Positions 1 through 26,454 of a stretch of DNA of 64,000 nt are shown piece by piece. This DNA is from Alphaproteobacteria bacterium Ga0077535 (GTDB taxonomy: Bacteria > Pseudomonadota > Alphaproteobacteria > Caulobacterales > Aquidulcibacteraceae), in contig LNEK01000018.1 in assembly GCA_001464425.1 (NCBI GenBank), positions 1-64,000 on the forward strand, read 5' to 3'. Made by a program: the position numbers and the translations under genes. Position 1 is the first letter of the stretch, and every line of letters starts with the position of its first letter. The notes below the pieces were generated by a model. The model was given only the letters and a program-made list of their open reading frames with translations. It made no database searches and was not told the DNA's origin.

Positions 1-468
1 AATGTGATGTGGCCGTTGACTGCTTTCACCGAAGAGAATGGCGCGACGCGCCTTTGGCCAGGCAGTCACACGGACGCGCTGGATCGCAGCATTGATCCAG
101 CGCGGTCGATCCCCGCGGAGATGCAGCCGGGGGATGCATTGGTCTTCCTTGGCGCGCTGACGCACGGCGCCGGCGAGAACCGGTCAAACGCGCCGCGCGA
201 CGGCATCATTGTCTCCTATTGTTTGGGTTGGCTAAAGCAGTACGAAAATCAATTCCTGGCTTACCCACCCGCCGTCGCGCGGTCTTTCCCAGAACCCCTG
301 CAGCGGCTCATCGGCTATCAGATGCACCGGCCCAATCTTGGCGGCTGGGAGGGGCAGGATCCGATCCAAGCGTTGGCGACGAACACCCCGACGCTTTGTC
401 CGCACGTGGACGCGTTGACGCCCGACATCGCGCGCCAGCTCAAGGCTCACTATGGCGAGGACGCCTGA
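1..468 (+). CDS. Phytanoyl-CoA dioxygenase (PhyH) family protein, 3' part
   Basis: The reading frame is open from the first base, so the gene starts before the window. Its last 155 or so codons resemble the C-terminal half of PhyH-type Fe(II)/2-oxoglutarate oxygenases. Near the start it reads FTEENGATRLWPGSH, the usual segment around the distal iron-binding His. It continues with PGDALVFLGALTHGAGEN and a later Arg that would hold 2-oxoglutarate. The substrate cannot be told. It overlaps the next gene by 17 bp, which suggests the two are co-transcribed. Confidence 0.8.
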   Translation, partial: NVMWPLTAFTEENGATRLWPGSHTDALDRSIDPARSIPAEMQPGDALVFLGALTHGAGENRSNAPRDGIIVSYCLGWLKQYENQFLAYPPAVARSFPEPLQRLIGYQMHRPNLGGWEGQDPIQALATNTPTLCPHVDALTPDIARQLKAHYGEDA

Positions 469-1072
469 CTCACCCATACCTGAACGCGCGTATCAGGAAA
501 TCAAGACTAGGGTCTTAGCCGGCCGCTTCAGGCTGCGTCAGCGACTGGACGCGAGCGCGATCGCGTCCGACCTCGGCGTATCAACAACGCCCGTGCGCGA
601 GGCTCTCTTGCGGCTGACTTCAGAACGGCTCGTGAGCTTTCGTCCCTCGCACGGCTTTGCTGTCGCCATGTGGAGCGAGAGCGGCCTGCGCGATCTTTAT
701 CGATGGCGGGGCGAACTCGCCGAGCTGGCGCTTGCGAATTTCGCTGCGGCGGCCCAACCGATAGTGGATGCCGCGGCGAGTTACCCTGACAAGGCCGCAG
801 ACCTATTGGCAGGGCTGGCAATCGCCGCACACACCGAACTCGTACACGCAGTGCGAAATGCCGATGATCGGCTGCACATGGCGCGGGTCGCTGAAGCCGA
901 AATCTGGCCAAACGTCGAGCAGGACCTCGCGCCCATCAGTAAGGCGATTTTGAGCGGCAACATCGCTCCGATCAGAAACGCACTTCGAAAGTATCACATG
1001 CGGCGTTGTATGAACGCCAAACGCATCCGCGACTGCGCCGCGCTGCTAGGGCTTTCCTCGAACGGCGCCTAG
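452..1072 (+). CDS. GntR family transcriptional regulator
   Basis: A 206-residue protein with an N-terminal winged helix typical of GntR regulators (residues about 8-75). It includes the stretch ending in TTPVREALLRLTSERLV, which is the recognition-helix signature of the family. The C-terminal part is helical and resembles an FCD-type ligand domain, though it is short for that class and I see no clear metal-binding set of residues. It overlaps the PhyH gene upstream and probably controls it. It stops about 100 bp before the lasso peptide precursors and has no evident link to them. Confidence 0.8.
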   Translation: MARTPDSPIPERAYQEIKTRVLAGRFRLRQRLDASAIASDLGVSTTPVREALLRLTSERLVSFRPSHGFAVAMWSESGLRDLYRWRGELAELALANFAAAAQPIVDAAASYPDKAADLLAGLAIAAHTELVHAVRNADDRLHMARVAEAEIWPNVEQDLAPISKAILSGNIAPIRNALRKYHMRRCMNAKRIRDCAALLGLSSNGA

Positions 1073-1084
1073 ACGCTTTCCGGC

Positions 1085-1110
1085 TTAATATTCATTCTTA
1101 TAAACTCTCT
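1085..1110 (+). promoter_or_regulatory. AT-rich putative promoter of the lasso peptide operon
   Basis: Between the GntR stop and the first precursor the sequence turns AT-rich against a GC-rich background and contains TATAAA at 1099-1104, a plausible -10 element. The matching -35 is weak. This is the only stretch in the gap that looks like a promoter. Confidence 0.3.
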
Positions 1111-1176
1111 TATTCACCTGGAGTGTCACACGCTCTCACCGGATCGAATGAACGATCCACCTCAATGGAGGAAGTT

Positions 1177-1296
1177 ATGCGTGAAGACCTCGAACAAGAC
1201 GAACTCATCGATCTGGGCGCCGCCAGCGAAGTCACGCGCGGCATCGTGCAGCGTTTCGCCGAAGAGTCGACGGGCCTGCCCGACTATCGCGACTGA
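1177..1296 (+). CDS. Lasso peptide precursor 1
   Basis: A 39-codon gene behind a strong ribosome binding site (GGAGG at 1167-1171). The peptide has an acidic leader of 21 residues with the motif IDLGAASEVT, then a core predicted as GIVQRFAEESTGLPDYRD. The leader ends in Thr-Arg, placing Thr at the -2 position where lasso maturases require it. The core starts with Gly and has Glu at positions 8 and 9, either of which could close the macrolactam ring. The neighbouring second precursor, B protein and cyclase make the assignment firm. The exact ring size is inferred. An upstream ATG at 1165 would overlap the ribosome binding site, so 1177 is preferred. Confidence 0.88.
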   Translation: MREDLEQDELIDLGAASEVTRGIVQRFAEESTGLPDYRD

Positions 1297-1324
1297 GTTC
1301 GCGCTCAACACGGGAGAGCCTGCA

Positions 1325-1450
1325 ATGGCTGAAGCAGTGCAAGACGTCCACGCGGACGTCATCGATCTCGGCGCCGTCAACGAAGTGACGCTGGGCATTC
1401 CAAAAGTCCCGTTCGAGGAATCGACGGGGCAGATGGATCATCGCGACTGA
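1325..1450 (+). CDS. Lasso peptide precursor 2
   Basis: A 41-codon gene 28 bp after precursor 1, with GGGAGAG just upstream of its ATG. The leader carries IDLGAVNEVT and ends in Thr-Leu. The predicted core is GIPKVPFEESTGQMDHRD. It has the same length (18) as the first core and shares Gly1-Ile2, Phe before or near Glu8-Glu9, the segment EESTG, and a tail ending in Asp, an aromatic or His, Arg, Asp. The differences lie in the ring (Pro, Lys, Val, Pro) and in the loop. It is a clear paralogue of precursor 1 and is probably matured by the same B and C proteins. Confidence 0.88.
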   Translation: MAEAVQDVHADVIDLGAVNEVTLGIPKVPFEESTGQMDHRD

Positions 1451-1459
1451 GATCCCGGC

Positions 1460-1484
1460 CGGCGCCGGAGGCCCTCCGGCGCCG
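1460..1484 (+). promoter_or_regulatory. GC-rich hairpin between precursor and enzyme genes
   Basis: An 11-bp perfect stem (arms 1460-1470 and 1474-1484, CGGCGCCGGAG and its complement) with a 3-base loop, directly after the second precursor stop. No T-run follows, so it is not a classic terminator. It could stabilise the 5' precursor mRNA or partly attenuate read-through, giving more substrate than enzyme, as is common in RiPP operons. Confidence 0.55.
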
Positions 1485-1509
1485 TGCTCAGCAAGCTAGT
1501 GGCGCGCAG

Positions 1510-2139
1510 ATGCAAAAGTATGTTCTCGCCCCTCATGTTCATGCCTCTGTCGATGGCGATTGGCTCATCTTCCTGGATCTAAAGTCAAATCGATACTTCG
1601 CCGTCAGCGCGGCGCAATCGGCGGCCATCGATGGTATTGCGAACGCGCGTCGCGACGAGACGGCCGTGGAAAGCGGAGCGCTTCAGAAGCTGGCGGCGCG
1701 AGGTGTGCTGACCGCTTCAAAGGACGCGCACCCTCCGCAAGAGCTGATTGGCCATTCCGGACGCATCAATGCGCCGACGATCATGCAGTTCGCGTGGGCA
1801 TCGCACTGGGCGTCCGCAACGGTGCGGCGAGGCGACATGTGGCGTGCGGCTCAACAGATCAGGTCATGGAAGCGGGCTTCCCGCCAGGACGTGGACGCAG
1901 GCCGCAAAGCCATCCTCCAATTCAATGAAATGCGGCCGTGGCTGCCAAAGCGCTACGTCTGCCTATTCGACGCACTTTGTCTCATTCGATTTCTCCTGTC
2001 GCGCGGCACCCATGCGACGCTTGTGATTGGCGTACGGGCACGGCCCTTTCTTGCCCATAGCTGGGTGGAGCTTGATGGCGCCATTGTCGATGACGGCGGC
2101 GAAGACTGCGCGTCTATGCAAGAGATCGTCCGGCTATGA
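1510..2139 (+). CDS. Lasso peptide B protein: fused leader-binding (PqqD-like) domain and transglutaminase-like protease
   Basis: A 209-residue protein. The N-terminal 75 or so residues form a PqqD-like recognition domain that should bind the precursor leader. The rest is the transglutaminase-fold cysteine protease that cuts the leader off. The catalytic set is visible as Cys151 (in RYVCLFDALC), His183 (in LAHSWVEL) and Asp194/195, with nearly the spacing known for McjB. The fused form is usual in Proteobacteria. It overlaps the cyclase by 4 bp (ATGA), so the two are translationally coupled. A 59-bp gap with a stable hairpin separates it from the precursors. Confidence 0.9.
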   Translation: MQKYVLAPHVHASVDGDWLIFLDLKSNRYFAVSAAQSAAIDGIANARRDETAVESGALQKLAARGVLTASKDAHPPQELIGHSGRINAPTIMQFAWASHWASATVRRGDMWRAAQQIRSWKRASRQDVDAGRKAILQFNEMRPWLPKRYVCLFDALCLIRFLLSRGTHATLVIGVRARPFLAHSWVELDGAIVDDGGEDCASMQEIVRL

Positions 2140-3986
2140 CCGCTCGTATGGTCGGTTTCCGCTGGCGCCCGACCGATCGAAACGGCGAACGCAAAGCGCG
2201 CATTGGCTTGGAAAGACTTGGCCCCAGTTTTTCCAAGGTGAGCGAGCGGCGCGGCGTTCTTATTGCGCTTGCCAACGCCGATCCAGATTCGCGAATCCTG
2301 CCGGACGACCTCGGCGTCGTGCTTGGTCCCCTATTTTTGTCCGGCGAAGAACGCGACGAGCCGGTAGCCTCAATAACATCCGCTGAGGCCTGGAAGCTGG
2401 CCGAAAGCGGCGGCGCACTTTTGGTTCAGAACTATTGGGGCGGCTATTGCGCTGTTTTGCATGACCACGGCCGCGATGAGCTGCACCTCTTGCGCGATCC
2501 CTGCGGCGCCAGCGCGCTCTACGTGCTCGACGCCGGTGAGTTCACCGTCTTTGCGAACGATGCGGAAGATCTGCTCGTCGTGGATCCCGAACTTGACGTC
2601 GACCAGACGATGCTTAGCGCCTTCCTCTGTCAACCTCGCTTGGTAACGACGCGCACGGGCTTGGCGAAGGTGCGTGAGGTGCTGCCTGGCGTCGCCCTAA
2701 CATTGATGCGGACTGGCCGGCGTCAAGCCTCGCTGTGGCAACCGTCCATACGAGAGCCGAAGCTTGACTTCGTCAACGGCCAATTAGCGCTTCGCCGCGC
2801 CGTTGGCCTCGTGGCGTCGGCGTGGGTCGGCTACAGCCAGCAGAGAGGGCCGATCGCGCTTCGGCTCTCCGGCGGGTTTGATTCAACGTTAGTCGCGTGC
2901 GCGCTTCACCACGCCGGCGCACACGACGTGATTTGCTTCAACGAATTTCCAGCCGATACGCCAGAGGGCGACGAGCGCGCATTCGCCCGCATCGCGGCCG
3001 AGACGTTGAATTTCTCGCTGAGCGAACTCGCCGCGCATCCCGACCATGTGTCCTATTCCGCCATTTTGGAAGCCCGTCTCAGCGCACGGCCTTCCTATAG
3101 TGAGTTCAGCTTCTCTGATTCCCTGCTGGGCGACGCGATCAACGCTGCGGGGGCGCATGTCGTCGCTTCGGGGCAGGGCGGCGATCAAGTGCTGCATCGC
3201 AGCCGCACGGCATCGATCGCGGCGGATGCCATGATGGACGGCTGCCCTCCGGCTGATCTTTGGCGTATCGCGCTCGACACCGCCCAGCTCATTCGCGCTC
3301 CGGTCTGGGATGTGTTCGCGGCCATAGCGGGCGCCGTCGCCCCGTGGCGGCAGTTTTCACCCTACAATAGCGTCTTCGACAACGTGCTTGCGTCCGAAGG
3401 ATCGCTTCCAGCAAGGGCGGAATGGGCGGCCCACCCATGGGCGAGCGCCATGCATAAGGCCACTCCAGCCAGAGCGCTGCGCATGGCGCATGTGGCCGAT
3501 CTCCACTTTTATCACCAGCGCTCCTCGTTGAGCGGTTTTATCGCCGCGCCGCTGCTCGCGTGTCAGCCGGTGGTCGAGTGCTGCCTGTCGATCCCACCTT
3601 ATGAAATGACCCAAGGAGGGCGTGAGCGAGCGCTGGCTCGGGCCGCGTTTGGCGACTTAGTTCCACGTATTATCCTGGAGCGGCGCCACAAGGGTGACAC
3701 CACCCGCTATCACCGCGCGGTGCTGGAACGGCAATTGCCTTTCATCCGTGAGATGCTGTGCGACGGTGAACTCGTGAAGTTCGGGCTATTGGCGCGCGCA
3801 CCGCTGGAGACCGCGCTTCGGCGCGATGTGGTGGTCGATGCGAAAACCAAAGCGCAGATTATGACCGCCTTCATTGCCGAACTGTGGCTCCGGCGCTTCC
3901 TCAAAACAAAAGCGGCGTGTGCGCTGGCTTTGCGGGCTGGAGCCGGCCCGTCGTCAGAGATAGGAAGCGAACTTCAATCGGGCTGA
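2136..3986 (+). CDS. Lasso peptide cyclase (C protein, asparagine synthetase-like)
   Basis: A 616-residue homologue of asparagine synthetase B. The N-terminal glutaminase-like half lacks an N-terminal catalytic Cys, as in other lasso cyclases. The synthetase half carries the ATP pyrophosphatase loop LRLSGGFDST (about residue 247). It is expected to adenylate the side chain of Glu8 or Glu9 of the core and form the isopeptide bond with Gly1. Its 3' end overlaps the convergent isopeptidase gene by 13 bp, so the two transcripts are antisense at their tails. No ABC transporter gene follows. Confidence 0.9.
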   Translation: MTARMVGFRWRPTDRNGERKARIGLERLGPSFSKVSERRGVLIALANADPDSRILPDDLGVVLGPLFLSGEERDEPVASITSAEAWKLAESGGALLVQNYWGGYCAVLHDHGRDELHLLRDPCGASALYVLDAGEFTVFANDAEDLLVVDPELDVDQTMLSAFLCQPRLVTTRTGLAKVREVLPGVALTLMRTGRRQASLWQPSIREPKLDFVNGQLALRRAVGLVASAWVGYSQQRGPIALRLSGGFDSTLVACALHHAGAHDVICFNEFPADTPEGDERAFARIAAETLNFSLSELAAHPDHVSYSAILEARLSARPSYSEFSFSDSLLGDAINAAGAHVVASGQGGDQVLHRSRTASIAADAMMDGCPPADLWRIALDTAQLIRAPVWDVFAAIAGAVAPWRQFSPYNSVFDNVLASEGSLPARAEWAAHPWASAMHKATPARALRMAHVADLHFYHQRSSLSGFIAAPLLACQPVVECCLSIPPYEMTQGGRERALARAAFGDLVPRIILERRHKGDTTRYHRAVLERQLPFIREMLCDGELVKFGLLARAPLETALRRDVVVDAKTKAQIMTAFIAELWLRRFLKTKAACALALRAGAGPSSEIGSELQSG

Positions 3987-5881
3987 AGCCATCGATCGAA
4001 CCAGTCCAGGGTCCGCTGCTGGGCGGCCAGTAGCTGTTGGGGCCGATATTTGAGGTGATAGGCGCCTGGATAGATGTAGGCTTCATACGGCGTTCCGTTT
4101 TCATGCAAACGCGCCAACAAGGGAAAGCCGCGCACAGCTTCGCTTTCACCCCAGTTGAACAGAATGGGCGTAGTGAGCCGCTCGGCGTTCAACGAAGCGC
4201 TGTTGTCGCGCCACCACTGTGTCCAAGGCGATCCTTCGACCCACGGCGAAGTGAGGCCAATGCGCGCGAGGCTGCGATCACGATATGCGGAGGCTTGGAG
4301 CGGCCAGCTTGCGGGATCGGTCGGGGGCGAGCCAACGACGGCCGCTCTGAAGGTGTTGGGCTCGTCCATCAGCATGGCGTAGACGGTCTCGGCGCCATCG
4401 GACAAACCGCTAATGCCAATGCGAGCCGGATCGGCGCCACGGGCAATGGCGCGGCGGATGAGAGCGTTGAGCGCCTCGCGCTTGGCGCGCCTTTCGGAAC
4501 CGTCGAGTTCGGTCTCGCGCTGAACCTCCGCGGCGGTCAGCCGCGCTGCGCGTAAGCGAAATTCCGGGCGCTCGACGCTGATGACGAAATAGCCGCGCGC
4601 TGAGAGCGGCAGGATCGGTGTCTCGTTACCGACGCCACCGCGCAGGAAACCGCGCGAGTGATATTGAACGACAACGGCGGAATAAGACCGGCCCCGGCGG
4701 TAGCGCAACGGATAGACGAGGTGTGCGTAGCTCTCATTGCCTTCGGCGTCGGTAAAGTCGAGCCGTTCTATGCGCGGGGCCGCAATCGTGCGAAAGCCGG
4801 GGTTAGGATCGAAGAGCGGCGTGAGCGCGCCGCTCGCAACGTCGATTGAAACCAAACGGCGCGGCGTCAGCGTGCTCTCCTGAAAGCAGACGAGGGCGGC
4901 GTGCCCGGGCGCGCAGGCAAAGAGGCGCTCTTCCGCCCGTCGTATCAAACGCACGGCGCCCAACACTGGTGACCACATGTAGAGGGCGTGTAACACGCGC
5001 CCATGGCCCTCGCGTCGGAGGAACAGCACTTGTTCGGCGTCGTCGCCTGACATGGGCCAAGCTGCATCTAGCGCGCCTGCGCATGCAGTGTCCATGCAAC
5101 GCTCGTCGCCCGGCGCGAAGAGACCGAGCGCGGGTTCTGCAGCCGTCGAAGTGGAATCGATCGCCCTGATGTAGGCGGGCGCCGGAGGCGCGCTGTCGTC
5201 AGCCGCACGCGTCAATCCGGACGGGGGGTCGTAGCTCCAAGTGCGCGCTCCGGCGGCTTCATCGGTGACACGGGCAAGGCCGTACGCCGCTCGAAAGTTC
5301 TCATCGACGCGAAAACCATGGCGTTCGTCCTCGAGCAATTGGGCGTGCGCCTGCTCGCGCGGCGTGGCGGTCTCGAACATCAGAACATCGCCGCTGAACC
5401 AAAGGCCGCGGATGTCGCCCTCGGCGTCGGTCACCTGGGCGTCATCACCCGTTCTCAAGTCGACACGGCGGATGTTCAACCGACCGTCGCGTTCGGCGGT
5501 GTAGTAGAGCGCCCCGCCATCAGGCGAAAAACGGGCGATGCGATCGACGCCCAGCCCGGACCGGTAGCCACCGTCGGTACGGAACACAAACCGGCCTGCA
5601 TCGGCGACGATGCGGGTGTGCCCGCTCGGGATATCAGTCAGCGCCAAGCGATAGGCATAGTTGTCTGCCTCGGGCAAGATTTCGCGTACGAAGAAGGCGG
5701 CATGAGTCTGGTCTGGCGATATCTCAAGCAATGGATCGACATCGCCCCCGATATCGCGAAGCAAGTAGATGTCCTCAAGCGTCACGGCACGACGCCACTC
5801 CGCCTGCGCCCCGGCCGGCGGCGACACGACAAGCGCGAAGCCGAGGATCATCGCCAATTGAAATCGCATCGTCGCGCTCAC
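3974..5881 (-). CDS. Lasso peptide isopeptidase (AtxE2-like, S9 family), secreted
   Basis: A 635-residue S9 serine peptidase with a signal peptide (residues 1-27, ending AGAQA). It has a beta-propeller-like N-terminal region followed by an alpha/beta hydrolase domain. The nucleophile is Ser494 in GLSDG. The acid is probably Glu581 in GESEAV rather than Asp, and the His is His609 in GAYHLKY. Glu as the acid is a mark of the isopeptidases that linearise lasso peptides by cutting the Gly1-Glu bond. It overlaps the TonB receptor gene by 4 bp (ATGA), so imported lasso peptide would meet this enzyme in the periplasm. A general dipeptidyl peptidase is the alternative, but the context argues against it. 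Confidence 0.88.
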   Translation of the reverse strand: MSATMRFQLAMILGFALVVSPPAGAQAEWRRAVTLEDIYLLRDIGGDVDPLLEISPDQTHAAFFVREILPEADNYAYRLALTDIPSGHTRIVADAGRFVFRTDGGYRSGLGVDRIARFSPDGGALYYTAERDGRLNIRRVDLRTGDDAQVTDAEGDIRGLWFSGDVLMFETATPREQAHAQLLEDERHGFRVDENFRAAYGLARVTDEAAGARTWSYDPPSGLTRAADDSAPPAPAYIRAIDSTSTAAEPALGLFAPGDERCMDTACAGALDAAWPMSGDDAEQVLFLRREGHGRVLHALYMWSPVLGAVRLIRRAEERLFACAPGHAALVCFQESTLTPRRLVSIDVASGALTPLFDPNPGFRTIAAPRIERLDFTDAEGNESYAHLVYPLRYRRGRSYSAVVVQYHSRGFLRGGVGNETPILPLSARGYFVISVERPEFRLRAARLTAAEVQRETELDGSERRAKREALNALIRRAIARGADPARIGISGLSDGAETVYAMLMDEPNTFRAAVVGSPPTDPASWPLQASAYRDRSLARIGLTSPWVEGSPWTQWWRDNSASLNAERLTTPILFNWGESEAVRGFPLLARLHENGTPYEAYIYPGAYHLKYRPQQLLAAQQRTLDWFDRWLQPD

Positions 5882-8800
5882 CAGCGCTGCCGCAATTCGA
5901 GCGAGATCACGCGGCCAAGCGGCGACGCGTTCGCGGCGTCGAATGCGAAGCCAGTCGGGTTGTTGGCGAAGGGCGGGTCTTCGTCAAAGACGTTATTCAC
6001 ATTAAACGCAACCACGAGGCCGCGCTCACCGTCGTCAAAGTCACGCGTGAGCCGGAAGTCAAAGGTCTGGAAGGAATCTATCTCCCGCGCGGGTAGGCTC
6101 AACGTGTCGCGATAAGCGTCCACGTAATTGAACGTGAGCGCGGCGCCCGTTTGCACGCCCTGCCAGGCTAAGGTGGCGCGGCCGCGAAGGTCTACCGGCC
6201 CATTCAAAGTGTTGAGCGCGCTCACTGGCGCCGCTCCCGGCGCCAACGTGGTCTCATACTGCAGCATGTTGCTGGCGGCCAAGGTCAGCGAGATTTGCCC
6301 AATGTCGGTCTCGAAAGCGTACGCCGCAGAGAGATCGATGCCGCGCACGCGCAGGGCCGATAGATTGACCAGGCGCCGGTCGACGATGACCTCAACGCCG
6401 TCAGCGGGCAGCACGCCGAATGGGGGCGGCCCCAGCGCCAGAAATTGGGCTATGAGCTCCGGCGAAGGATCGCGATAGATGATGCTTTCAAAGCCTGCAG
6501 GATTGCGCAGGATCGCAAACGTACCGCCCGCCGAAGTGATGCGGTCGGCAAAATCGATGTCGTAATAAGTCGCTGAGAGCGTAAAGCCCGCGCCGAGTTC
6601 GACGTCGAAGCCTGCGGTCCAGGTCTCCGCCTGTTCGGGACGAAGTTCGCGATTGGCGCCGGCGATAGCCAAGACCCCAGTCGAGCCGTTATCTGCGAGC
6701 GGGTCCTGTGCGGCGCTCGCCGTGAGATACGAGATCGCTGTTCCGCCCAACAATTGATCGAACAGAGGCCCCTTGAAGGATTGGCCCCAAGAGGCGCGGA
6801 GCGCGAAGGCTTCTGATAAAGCCCACCGCACGCCGACGCGGGGGGTGGTAGATGCGCCATAGTCGCTTGCATCCTCACGCCGGGCTGACGCCGACAGCGT
6901 CAGGGCATGTACAAGCGGCACGCCATTGTCGGATGAAATGAGAGGCAGGTATAGTTCGGCGAAAACAGCATCGACTGTGCGGGTGCCAGGATCTTGAACG
7001 AATTGATCGGCGACACCTGACGCGTGGTCTTCGAAACGCGAAATCGAAAAGCGTTCGCGGCGTTGCTCGACGCCGAAAGCGGCGCGGATCGGGCCGCCAG
7101 GCAAGGCCCAGAGCGGGCCATCCATGGTGGCGCCGTAACTCGTGACCCGGCCTTCGCTTTCGGTGGCGATGTCGAACGTTAGGCCCGCCAGCACTGCCGA
7201 ATTTGTGTTGGAGCCGTCTGCAAAGGGATTGAAGGCGGTGTTCAGATTGCCGCTGGCGAGCGACGCGGCAATGTTTGCGGAGTCGAAGAAGTTTTCATTG
7301 TCGATGGACTCGCGGCTTTGCGAGTGGGTGAGGGAAGCCGACAATGTCCAATCGTTCGGAAGCGCGATGTCGCCAGTAAATGCCGCCGAGTAAGCTTGCG
7401 ATCGGCTGATATTGCGGACCGGTCCCAAGTCGGGTCCGAAGAAGTACGCGATCGTAAGCGGTCCCTGGCCCAGGAATAAGTTGTTCAGCTGCCGATAGGC
7501 GTTGGTCTCCGGCACCACGATATTGGCGAAAAGTTGCTCGCGCTCGAGGTATGCCTCACGATCCGTTGCGATGAGATCGGCGCTGAGCGTAAGAACCGAA
7601 CTCACATCTTGCTGCGCGCTTACAAAGATCGAGTGGCTCGTCTGCTCCGGCAAGAGCCAGGCCCCCTCATTGAGTTCGTTGAGGTTGAGCACCCCGGGAA
7701 TGAGGTCAGCCGCAGTTAAAGACGTACCGTCTTGACCTTGCGGGATGGCGAGCGAAACCGGCGTCGCGCCGATACGAATGATGTTTCCCGGATTGGCGAG
7801 CGTACGCGAGAAGTTGGAGCCTTCGGGGCGGAAGTCGGAGCTTGCCAAGAAGTCGCGGTCGTCGATGTCGAGTTGGCGGCGATCGCGATAATCGTAAGCG
7901 GCGGTCAAGCGCCCGCTGTTCCAGTCGAAGCCGAACAATTGAGAGAAGCCTAGGCCCTCGGCGCCCCCTTGCGATGTGCCGGTGACATAGCCTCGCGTTT
8001 CGGCGCCCTCGAAGCTGTCGTTGAGGATGATGTTGACGACGCCCCCGACCGCATCCGAGCCATAGGTGGCCGAGGCCCCGTCGGCTAAAACTTCGATGCG
8101 CTCCACCGCCGCGAGCGGAATGATTGAGACATCCACGTAATTGCCGACCCCTGCGGGCGCGAGCCGGCGGCCGTTGACGAGGGTCAGTGTTGCGTCGGCG
8201 CCTAGGCCTCGCAAATCGATGGTCGAGCCGTAGGAAAAGTTGCTGCGCGCGTTGAGCGAGCCTTCCACCGTTCCTTCATTTTGGCTGCCAGCAAAATTTT
8301 GCGGCAAAGTTTGCAACGCGTCTTGCAGCGTCAAGCGCCCGGTGGCGTCCAGATCTTCGCGGCTGAGTTCGACCAAATTCGAACCGGCCGGCGCGGCGCC
8401 TCGGATGCGTGTGCCGGTGACAACGATCTCTTCGTCCGCCTCAACGTCGGGCGCCTCCGCGTTGGCGTTCGCTTCGGCGCGAACGCGCGTGTCAGCGTTC
8501 GCGCGGCCGGGCTGGGGGCTCTGATCTTGCTCCAGCGAAAGCGTATTAATGGGCGTAATCTCGCCCCGGACATTGGAGTTGGAAAGCAACTGAGACAGCG
8601 CTTCCTCGCGCGTGAAGCGGCCACGCACCGCTGGCGCGAATTGGCCAGCAAAACGGTCCGCTGGGACAAGTGTGCTCAGTCCGGATTGTTGCGCGTATAG
8701 TGCCAGGGCGCTGGAGAGCGGCTGAGCGGGGATGTTGTACTCAATCTGGATTTCCTCAGCGCGCGATGCGCTGCCGGTCTGCGCGCACGCGTCAGGCGCA

Positions 8801-8916
8801 AACGCAAATGGCGACACGCCCAGCAACAGTCCGGCAATCCGGTGCGAAACGCGCTCCGCGCGCTTGACGGTTTTGGTCAAGCTCACCTCCCCTTGGACCG
8901 CATGCTCGGTCTTCAA
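5878..8916 (-). CDS. TonB-dependent receptor with STN signalling domain (lasso peptide uptake candidate)
   Basis: A 1012-residue outer membrane receptor. After a signal peptide (to about residue 46) comes an STN domain (about 55-120, with IPAQPLSSALALYAQQSGLS) that contacts the periplasmic part of a FecR protein. A spacer rich in Ala, Asn and Glu leads to the TonB box (DEEIVVTGTRI), the plug and the barrel, ending in a C-terminal aromatic as expected for BAM recognition. It lies between fecR and the isopeptidase gene in one operon, so it probably imports the lasso peptide, possibly carrying a ligand, and signals its binding. Confidence 0.88.
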   Translation of the reverse strand: MKTEHAVQGEVSLTKTVKRAERVSHRIAGLLLGVSPFAFAPDACAQTGSASRAEEIQIEYNIPAQPLSSALALYAQQSGLSTLVPADRFAGQFAPAVRGRFTREEALSQLLSNSNVRGEITPINTLSLEQDQSPQPGRANADTRVRAEANANAEAPDVEADEEIVVTGTRIRGAAPAGSNLVELSREDLDATGRLTLQDALQTLPQNFAGSQNEGTVEGSLNARSNFSYGSTIDLRGLGADATLTLVNGRRLAPAGVGNYVDVSIIPLAAVERIEVLADGASATYGSDAVGGVVNIILNDSFEGAETRGYVTGTSQGGAEGLGFSQLFGFDWNSGRLTAAYDYRDRRQLDIDDRDFLASSDFRPEGSNFSRTLANPGNIIRIGATPVSLAIPQGQDGTSLTAADLIPGVLNLNELNEGAWLLPEQTSHSIFVSAQQDVSSVLTLSADLIATDREAYLEREQLFANIVVPETNAYRQLNNLFLGQGPLTIAYFFGPDLGPVRNISRSQAYSAAFTGDIALPNDWTLSASLTHSQSRESIDNENFFDSANIAASLASGNLNTAFNPFADGSNTNSAVLAGLTFDIATESEGRVTSYGATMDGPLWALPGGPIRAAFGVEQRRERFSISRFEDHASGVADQFVQDPGTRTVDAVFAELYLPLISSDNGVPLVHALTLSASARREDASDYGASTTPRVGVRWALSEAFALRASWGQSFKGPLFDQLLGGTAISYLTASAAQDPLADNGSTGVLAIAGANRELRPEQAETWTAGFDVELGAGFTLSATYYDIDFADRITSAGGTFAILRNPAGFESIIYRDPSPELIAQFLALGPPPFGVLPADGVEVIVDRRLVNLSALRVRGIDLSAAYAFETDIGQISLTLAASNMLQYETTLAPGAAPVSALNTLNGPVDLRGRATLAWQGVQTGAALTFNYVDAYRDTLSLPAREIDSFQTFDFRLTRDFDDGERGLVVAFNVNNVFDEDPPFANNPTGFAFDAANASPLGRVISLELRQRW

Positions 8917-8975
8917 GAAGGGGAGACGAACGGGCTTGGCAAAAACGACAACGACGGAGAAGTTTCCTCACGCGC

Positions 8976-9521
8976 TCAATCAGAGCGCAGCACGATCACT
9001 CCGTCGGCGCGCCGATCGGCGCTAACCCCGACATTGTTTTCCAACAATCCGAGAAACGCCTCAACGTCGTCCCCCGCCACGTATCCCGCGAGACGCACCT
9101 GCGCGGTCGCGGTGTCGGCGAAGGCGAAGCGCACGCCCGAAAAGCGCGTCACCTCAGCCGCTGCTTCGCGCAAGGATTGGCCGTCGAGCGCCACCATACG
9201 CTCGCGCCACACCAGCCGGCGATCCAGGGCTTCCGGCGCCAGAACCGAAACGGTGGGAGCGCCCCCGCCAAGCTCGATCTCCTGATCGGCTGAAGCCGCC
9301 ACGCTGTTGTCAGGTGAAAACAGCATCTCGCGGCGTGCTTCGACCCGTCCGCTCAGCACCGTGGTGATGGCGCCATCCGGTCCCAGCCGCACGACGAACG
9401 AGGTGCCGAGCACACGGATCTCCCCGAACTTGGTCATCACGACGAAGGGCCGCGAGGCGTCGTGCGCAACATTGAAAAGCGCCACGCCTTCTTCGAACCG
9501 CACGCGGCGTTCACCGCGCAC
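8976..9521 (-). CDS. FecR-like anti-sigma factor, C-terminal (periplasmic) part, out of frame with its N-terminal part
   Basis: This frame holds the periplasmic half of a FecR protein: GERRVRFEEGVALFNVAHD followed by RPFVV and the FecR C-terminal (STN-like) region to LLENNVGVSADRRADG. It can only start at a GTG (9521) inside the end of the preceding frame, without a signal peptide or membrane segment. The upstream half (9511-9924) ends by a stop in another frame. Compared with intact FecR proteins, several residues between DGTTIEMA and GERRV are missing, so a short deletion that also shifted the frame is likely. Assembly error is possible. Confidence 0.7.
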   Translation of the reverse strand: MRGERRVRFEEGVALFNVAHDASRPFVVMTKFGEIRVLGTSFVVRLGPDGAITTVLSGRVEARREMLFSPDNSVAASADQEIELGGGAPTVSVLAPEALDRRLVWRERMVALDGQSLREAAAEVTRFSGVRFAFADTATAQVRLAGYVAGDDVEAFLGLLENNVGVSADRRADGVIVLRSD

Positions 9522-9924
9522 CAGGCGCCATTTCGATCGTGGTGCCGTCGCTTAACCGCACTAGGCGCTCCTGTTCCGGCGCCGTGGCATAGGCGGCGCC
9601 CGGCTCGTCCCGAAGCGGGCTGAGCGGTGAGATGACGAACAAGGCGAGAGCGGCCGCTGCCGAGAGCGCGGCCATCGCGATCGGCCGCACTGGGACCCTT
9701 GTTCTCCGATGGTCAATCTCGTGTGTGACGGGTTCTGTCGCCAAGACGGCATCGATCTTGTCGGCAGTCGCTGAGACCGCGTCATAGGCGCGCTTGTGGG
9801 TTTCGTCCGCGGCAAGCCAAGTCTGGAACGCGTCGATGTCTTGGCGGCTGACGCGGGGCCCGTCCAAAACCACGAGCCAATGCGCAGCCTCCAATTCGGC
9901 CTGTGTTGGCTCGCGGTGGGCCAT
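9511..9924 (-). CDS. FecR-like anti-sigma factor, N-terminal part, frameshifted
   Basis: A 137-residue N-terminal FecR fragment. It has the cytoplasmic sigma-binding domain (about residues 5-60, with AHWLVVLDGP and FQTWLAADETHKRAYD), one transmembrane helix (about 80-100), and the start of the periplasmic domain, up to DGTTIEMAPGAR, where a stop follows. The rest of the protein continues in a different frame (8976-9521), with the two frames overlapping by 11 bp. As written, the protein could bind the sigma factor but not receive a signal from the receptor. It follows the sigma factor gene after 11 bp. Confidence 0.75.
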   Translation of the reverse strand: MAHREPTQAELEAAHWLVVLDGPRVSRQDIDAFQTWLAADETHKRAYDAVSATADKIDAVLATEPVTHEIDHRRTRVPVRPIAMAALSAAAALALFVISPLSPLRDEPGAAYATAPEQERLVRLSDGTTIEMAPGAR

Positions 9925-9935
9925 GGCGATCTGTC

Positions 9936-10454
9936 TTAAGGCGCCGAAGCGCCGCCGTCATCGGCGGTGAGCCTGGCGTGACAAAAGGCGATGGCCTTCA
10001 AGACGAGCCGCTGCACCTGACGCTCGCTCACGCCGAGCGCCGCGGCGACCTCGGCAGGCGGCAAGAGTTCAACCCGGCGCATTAGGAGCGCCTTGCGCTC
10101 AAGGTCCGGTAGCGCCGCGATCGCCGCACGCACGGCTGCCGCCTCTTCAACGGCAATGCAATGATCCTCGGCGCTGGGCGCGTGCGCAGCAGCCGGCACG
10201 AGATCAATGCTTGCGACGGCGCGATAGGGCGCTGCCTTGTGCCTCCGGAGCGCATCTACTGCCATGTTCTTTGCGGTTTGGAACAAGAACGCTCGAGGCG
10301 ACACGATCTGTGTGGCGTCAGCTGCGCATAGACGTAAAAAACTGTCCTGTGCGATATCCTCTGGAGAGACTCTTGCGCCGAAGCGGCGCAGAAATCGCCT
10401 GAGGACGCCGGCCTCGTTATCGAACAGCCGCCTGATTTCCGGTTCCCCCCTCAT
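9936..10454 (-). CDS. FecI-like ECF RNA polymerase sigma factor
   Basis: A 172-residue ECF sigma factor. Region 2 lies at about residues 10-75 (VSPEDIAQDSFLRLCA, FLFQTAKNMAVDALRR) and region 4 at about 105-160 (AIAALPDLERKALLMRR, then a helix-turn-helix, GVSERQVQRLVLKA). It heads an operon with fecR, the STN-type TonB receptor and the isopeptidase. By the Fec model, ligand binding at the receptor should free this sigma factor to transcribe the uptake and degradation genes. Confidence 0.9.
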   Translation of the reverse strand: MRGEPEIRRLFDNEAGVLRRFLRRFGARVSPEDIAQDSFLRLCAADATQIVSPRAFLFQTAKNMAVDALRRHKAAPYRAVASIDLVPAAAHAPSAEDHCIAVEEAAAVRAAIAALPDLERKALLMRRVELLPPAEVAAALGVSERQVQRLVLKAIAFCHARLTADDGGASAP

Positions 10455-26330: not shown

Positions 26331-26454
26331 GCGGGCCGTAGGGAGATCAAGCGTTTCACGGAATTCCCGTAGCTAGGGAAACAACCTCTTGGCAATGGGC
26401 CCTTCGGCCCAATGACGCTGCGCGTCCCGGGGCTCAAGGTGGCTAGCGACGCCA

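Follow-up and report, generated by a model that had tools for sequence, protein, structure and literature searches.

The DNA under study is a window of 64,000 nucleotides (positions 1 to 64,000 of contig LNEK01000018.1, assembly GCA_001464425.1), in which positions 1177-10454 hold a genuine and mostly familiar lasso peptide gene cluster of the AtxE2-type isopeptidase kind. On balance, this is probably one of several quorum-sensing-headed isopeptidase-type lasso loci in the host, a Hyphomonadaceae-type alphaproteobacterium. The locus would rather likely encode a quorum-controlled lasso peptide that is passed on with its cognate receptor and isopeptidase as one exchangeable specificity cassette. 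A 2022 review (PMC9266682) describes a near-constant architecture for isopeptidase clusters, with gntR before the precursor and the TonB transporter and sigma/anti-sigma genes after the isopeptidase. As the review also gives uptake and linearization as the standing hypothesis for the class, neither the layout nor the cycle is new. The same review terms the function of these peptides “enigmatic” (PMC9266682).

Genes were assigned to families through profile searches with Pfam (PF) and NCBIfam (NF) models, with bit scores read against curated cut-offs (Table 1). The initial annotation had placed two precursors, a fused B protein and a cyclase on one strand, opposite an AtxE2-like isopeptidase, a TonB receptor and FecI; every one of these genes is present and belongs to the family named. 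The description of 1177-10454 as a complete locus stands as far as the named genes go, but the unit is larger. The gntR and phyH genes belong to it and had been overlooked, along with a quorum-sensing pair that would lie beyond the contig end. Likewise, no exporter is encoded in positions 1-10454, although with base 1 being the contig end anything upstream lies outside view. Membership of the isopeptidase-type class requires a B2 leader peptidase and an asparagine-synthase-like cyclase, as well as gntR, a TonB receptor and a sigma/anti-sigma pair. All are found here, the anti-sigma gene being frameshifted. The layout is no chance pattern, because 33 isopeptidase loci (one split) occur in the 60 genomes of the family that were sampled, most of the relatives being metagenome-assembled.

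Both precursors carry a benenodin-type leader, with I-D-L-G-A followed by a Thr two residues ahead of the core (position -2). Both cores have Glu at positions 8 and 9, and thus show the Thr at -2 and the Asp/Glu at core 7-9 that were looked for. Glu9 is common to every core of the closest relatives (L053, L055 and L069), which makes a nine-residue ring the better guess. The window precursors are predicted to give threaded lasso products, with monoisotopic masses of 2033.981 Da for A1 (Gly1/Glu9) and 2023.942 Da for A2. These correspond to [M+H]+ values of 2034.988 and 2024.949, and the linear peptides would each be 18.011 heavier. The N-terminal part of B is without a profile match in the Pfam and NCBIfam searches and is assigned as B1 from its position. 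The cyclase has the SGGFDS ATP loop, and its gene overlaps that of the isopeptidase tail-to-tail by 13 bp.

The isopeptidase (E) is homologous along its full length to the solved AtxE2 structure (5txc), and Ser494, Glu581 and His609 are invariant in an alignment with 16 relatives. Its N-terminus, MSATMRFQLAMILGFALVVSPPAGAQA, reads as a Sec-type signal sequence, a call made by eye from the sequence; the aligned relatives have similar hydrophobic N-termini. The enzyme therefore probably acts in the periplasm, and the linearization “inside” proposed in the initial annotation most likely refers to that compartment.

Table 1. Features of the lasso peptide locus in the window.
Feature	Position	Strand	Profile evidence and remarks
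phyH, 3′ part	4..468	+	PF05721 E 7.7e-15; phytanoyl-CoA dioxygenase family, Fe/2OG oxygenase; contig begins inside gene
gntR regulator, overlaps phyH	452..1072	+	PF00392 E 1.4e-14
Precursor A1, predicted core GIVQRFAEESTGLPDYRD	1177..1296	+	NF033522 benenodin family 32.5 bits (cut-off 33)
Precursor A2, predicted core GIPKVPFEESTGQMDHRD	1325..1450	+	NF033522 21.3 bits (cut-off 33)
B, leader-binding and leader-peptidase fusion	1510..2139	+	PF13471 E 1.6e-15; NF033537 lasso_biosyn_B2 62.5 bits (cut-off 33)
C, macrolactam (asparagine-synthase-like) cyclase	2136..3986	+	PF00733 Asn_synthase E 1.4e-23; NF033561 102 bits, under its own cut-off
E, AtxE2-type lasso isopeptidase, signal sequence	3974..5881	-	NF033523 535 bits (cut-off 400); homologous to AtxE2 5txc E 2.6e-71
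TonB receptor, plug and barrel (whole gene 5878-8916)	5878..8370	-	PF07715, PF00593; right end of exchangeable cassette
TonB receptor, signal sequence, STN-like domain and TonB box	8371..8916	-	PF07660 sub-threshold E 0.0026; constant signalling block starts here
fecR 3′ fragment, periplasmic domain	8976..9521	-	PF04773 E 2.9e-11; out of frame, without signal or anchor
fecR 5′ fragment, cytoplasmic anti-sigma domain and membrane helix	9511..9924	-	PF16220 E 8.6e-13; premature end
fecI, ECF sigma factor	9936..10454	-	PF04542 and PF08281

Mosaic inheritance and the cassette borders

As a mosaic, the locus consists of three blocks that have been inherited separately: LuxR/LuxI/PhyH/GntR, core/B/C/E/plug-barrel, and STN/FecR/FecI. 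These emerge from pairwise identities over the family loci, compared through rho correlations and Mantel tests and repeated with 22 dereplicated loci. Mutual correlations are 0.53-0.81 in the first block, 0.78-0.88 among B2, C, E and the barrel in the second (0.44-0.52 for the weaker B1) and 0.68-0.81 in the third. The cassette is uncorrelated with either end (mostly <0.2), and the two ends show a weak to moderate correlation with each other (0.11-0.50). The core peptide follows C (0.72), the barrel (0.70) and E (0.66), each with p 0.002; it has no correlation with FecI, FecR, GntR, PhyH or LuxRI and a weak one with STN (0.22). Within one receptor protein, the STN domain and the barrel are uncorrelated (rho 0.03). 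In a sliding comparison along the receptor, correlation with FecR/FecI gives way to correlation with C/E between residues 135 and 199, the STN/plug border.

It is very improbable that an artefact of aligning saturated, short or gappy segments has produced this mosaic. The STN domain has about 126 residues and most pairs are 30-40% identical, which could invite such an artefact, but the same short domain correlates with FecR (0.70) and FecI (0.64). The block result also holds in the 22 dereplicated loci (STN-barrel 0.19 vs E-barrel 0.86). Moreover, the junctions are directly visible in DNA profiles, in which the flanks are compared as DNA, and the AU test agrees. A single clade for window-type and X-type barrels is rejected (p-AU 6.8e-29), whereas their STN and FecR sequences form one clade with 99% support.

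This genome has four lasso isopeptidase loci (L038 on contig C12, L039 on C16, L040 on C7 and the window on C18), and relatives have up to three over the family cut-off. Between the window and L038, the DNA is mostly 87-99% identical over fecI, fecR and the first receptor part, with fecI at 94%, and 90-99% identical in the initial 300 bases of the phyH segment. The B, C, E and receptor barrel proteins of the two loci are merely 24-37% identical. The receptor segment at 8371-8916 is 70-98% identical as DNA to loci carrying unrelated cassettes. Two further loci, L043 and L056, occupy the same chromosomal site with conserved flanks (4.5 kb on the left at 91.5%, 3.1 kb on the right at 90%) and have unrelated cores. 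In the tandem pair of lasso loci at L060 (G034:C3:1081001-1101000), one member is a remnant that joins a window-type barrel to a different STN/FecR/FecI. The putative ligand-facing part of the receptor thus travels with the peptide and its enzymes, and the part predicted to contact FecR stays with FecR. That the plug-barrel is inherited with core, C and E (rho 0.70-0.88) while the STN/FecR/FecI of the same locus go their own way is expected of a cognate receptor and is the best indirect evidence that the receptor may serve its own lasso peptide. STN matches number 13 in 10 genomes and most are lasso receptors, non-lasso STN receptors being too few in these genomes to act as a control; the decoupling of STN and barrel is thus a result for the lasso receptors of the family loci.

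Some lasso islands (L056:1-2255 and L062:2877-4247) are flanked by ParB-like, S26-peptidase (TraF-like) and transposase genes, and others lie amid conjugation genes on Novosphingobium plasmids, which suggests that such islands may spread by mobile elements. In L086 and L090, of Steroidobacter type, there are two tandem isopeptidase-like genes, with no B or C found nearby.

The quorum-sensing head and its palindrome

The window contig begins inside phyH and the paralogous contig C12 begins at the same point, which fits an assembler halting at a repeat. The window phyH is 97% identical to the full-length copy at L056:3983-4882, which has the HRD...H iron-binding motif. Upstream of that copy, in a locus 92.8% identical to the window, lie luxR (autoinducer-binding domain, E 1.6e-23) and luxI (autoinducer synthase, E 7.1e-27). 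From such 93%-identical relatives, we infer a luxRI head at the window locus. The order luxR-luxI-phyH-gntR-A-B-C is found in 25 of the 26 related loci with enough upstream sequence, the exception being the C7 locus of this genome, and gntR occupies the equivalent position in nearly all related loci. The LuxI and PhyH motifs are intact in relatives. Across the 21 lasso-isopeptidase genomes, 25 of 36 LuxI genes lie within 9 kb of a lasso isopeptidase, where about 0.8% each would be expected by chance. Outside the family, the linkage of luxRI to lasso genes recurs at seven other Sphingomonadales-type loci and, in a different gene order, on the Novosphingobium PP1Y plasmid Lpl.

The luxR-luxI-phyH unit of Novosphingobium (novR/novI) has been described without mention of lasso genes (PMC3704786). 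A literature search, with most subscription journals outside its reach, returned no paper linking acyl-homoserine lactone (AHL) signalling to isopeptidase-type lasso clusters, and priority for this link is not certain.

In most related loci, the region between luxR and luxI contains GTCA followed by an 18-20 bp palindrome that starts 70-79 bp before luxI. Its arms change together (ATAGGCACG..CGTGCCCAT, ATAGGTCCC..GGGACCAAT, ATGGGCCGATCGGCCCAT), with a complementarity of 0.80 for own arms vs 0.62 for swapped arms (permutation p 0.0002). A LuxR operator whose specificity is shifting would be expected to show this pattern. The palindrome is seen in relatives, the corresponding stretch of the window locus lying past the contig end. 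Scanning of the window for a copy of this lux box before A1 found none; there is a single chance-level match at 26395. No terminator is predicted between phyH/gntR and A1. With the phyH/gntR overlap and a gntR-A1 gap of 104 bp, this makes read-through from the head genes into the lasso genes plausible. With an operator-like site in view, the quorum-sensing head suggests a candidate inducer.

Two other roles were considered for the head genes. The C-terminal domain of GntR was rejected as a peptide sensor, as GntR tracks phyH and luxRI and not the core over all loci (rho -0.16 to 0.10). Between window-type and X-type loci, this domain is about 50% identical and the DNA-binding domain 83%. A role for PhyH as a CanE-like enzyme tailoring the core peptide is possible but not favoured, given a rho of -0.12 with the core and its known unit with luxI. 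It has also been noted that the luxR-luxI-phyH-gntR head stands at L125:6907-9848 beside mobile-element-type ardC and ssb genes with no lasso genes found behind it, in a genome that is lasso-bearing elsewhere. In the Qipengyuania- and Erythrobacter-type loci L105, L107 and L111, the head lies beyond fecI and not before the precursor.

The putative sensing arm and the FecR break

The initial annotation described an STN-type receptor and a FecR-like anti-sigma factor. For the former, the window copy itself is sub-threshold in Pfam (18.0 vs 28.4 bits), and sibling receptors score above the STN cut-off at the homologous position. As for the latter, the family is right (PF16220 and PF04773), but the one gene is split into two open reading frames in different frames by a 23-nucleotide frameshift deletion at their junction. 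The paralogous L038 copy (L038:9008-9966) has a different frameshift deletion, of 43 nucleotides, at the identical spot. In an alignment of the window copy with seven close copies, fecR is intact in the six relatives from other genomes. These breaks are seen in the assembly. Both deletions keep the cytoplasmic anti-sigma domain and the membrane helix and detach the periplasmic domain.

FecI/FecR cell-surface signalling calls for an intact membrane-spanning FecR, which the window copy lacks. Such a truncation of FecR would lead either to constitutive FecI activity or to a locked sigma factor, and in both cases the receptor would be uncoupled. As FecR is needed to carry the signal from receptor to FecI, the sensing arm at the window locus is probably uncoupled. 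With the relay cut at two of the four loci of this genome, signalling there is probably either lost or permanently on. That two copies should each be frameshifted at one position may point to selection, to a fragile site or to a fault in the assembly. A hairpin hotspot was discarded as the cause, as single-strand folding is unremarkable (z -1.4), and inspection of the deletion ends by eye revealed no direct repeats.

The break could also mark a decaying locus, a non-functional island whose genes are on their way out. The two different deletions in one genome and the remnant lasso loci in relatives (L060 and L070) would fit such decay, which is nevertheless unlikely: every other gene of the window locus is intact, the 92.8%-identical relatives are complete and the break itself might be an assembly error. 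In any event, it is a warning against assuming that every such cluster still senses its own peptide.

Proposed function and known systems

The full unit would comprise luxR-luxI-phyH-gntR-A1-A2-B-C facing E-receptor-fecR-fecI. At high cell density, AHL-bound LuxR would use the lux-box-like palindrome ahead of luxI to switch on an operon that extends into the lasso genes. B and C would mature the peptide, which would then exit the cell. The receptor, through its matched plug-barrel, would take up the peptide, while its N-terminus would signal through FecR to FecI and raise receptor and isopeptidase levels. Linearization of the lasso by the exported isopeptidase would follow in the periplasm. 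Core peptide, B, C, E and plug-barrel would together form the specificity cassette, exchanged as a block between constant regulatory ends. The cycle of release, re-import and linearization put forward in the initial annotation gains from the inheritance of the plug-barrel with core, C and E; the truncated FecR and the likely periplasmic site of linearization count against its original form or amend it.

Several observations weigh against this scheme. The cut FecR speaks against a working relay in this strain. The luxRI genes lie outside the window and none is found at high identity in this assembly, where there are only 66-75% matches at other loci. The Asticcacaulis, Sphingopyxis fribergensis and N. 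resinovorum loci carry gntR alone and the C7 locus of this genome is without any head gene; quorum control is therefore not universal. Co-inheritance of neighbouring genes may also reflect linkage as well as peptide-receptor matching. Since linkage alone could hold adjacent genes together, what tells most is the border inside the receptor gene, which indicates the receptor part expected to recognize the peptide.

Given the quorum head and the type-specific receptor, communication would be the preferred role over scavenging or antagonism. Tentatively, the lasso peptide may be a second, strain-specific signal: the shared AHL would count cells, and the peptide would report the cassette type of neighbours (a pherotype) through the barrel of the same cassette. 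Recombination within the conserved phyH/gntR and STN stretches would exchange cassettes from locus to locus and from strain to strain. A siderophore-like scavenger is a rather unlikely alternative: the lasso would bind a metal or a small cargo and enter with it through the receptor, after which ring opening by the isopeptidase would free the cargo. Pyoverdine-type loci likewise swap ligand and receptor as a block. The FecI/FecR/TonB layout agrees with scavenging, which is a standing hypothesis for the class (PMC9266682, PMC11006600), but the core peptides show no evident metal-binding motif, a quorum-sensing head is atypical of scavenging and no cargo is known. Quite unlikely is narrow-spectrum antagonism, with the peptide harmful to relatives that take it up and the producer kept immune by its periplasmic isopeptidase. 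Toxin-immunity systems commonly show rapid cassette diversification, quorum control and more than one locus per genome, as is seen here; however, isopeptidase-type lasso peptides tested so far are mostly without antibacterial activity (PMC9266682), and a dedicated uptake receptor would expose the producer to its own toxin. Cassette swapping between fixed regulatory ends, behind a quorum-sensing switch, offers a direct handle on what these peptides are for.

The locus shares with the astexin-2/3 (AtxE2), benenodin-1 and sphingopyxin I clusters the precursor leader family, B and C, the AtxE2-type isopeptidase, the TonB receptor, the sigma/anti-sigma pair, gntR before the precursor and the lack of an ABC exporter. 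It departs from them in luxR-luxI-phyH before gntR (in relatives), in a receptor that is chimeric at the STN/plug border and in the broken fecR. The head has the luxR-luxI-phyH order, direction and intact LuxI motifs of the novR/novI units of Novosphingobium. Unlike those units as published (PMC3704786), it continues into gntR and the lasso operon, yet the unit on the PP1Y plasmid Lpl adjoins a lasso locus. As in the ferric citrate-type FecA-FecR-FecI system, an STN-like N-terminus and FecR-like and FecI-like partners occur in one cluster; here, in contrast, the predicted ligand is a lasso peptide, FecR is truncated, and barrel and STN have separate histories. The pyoverdine/FpvA system is a ligand-receptor locus diversified by recombination, and there too the ligand-making genes and the receptor change together amid conserved surroundings. 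The present locus differs in that its product would be a ribosomal lasso peptide, and in that the junction falls inside the receptor gene, with the signalling domain staying behind.

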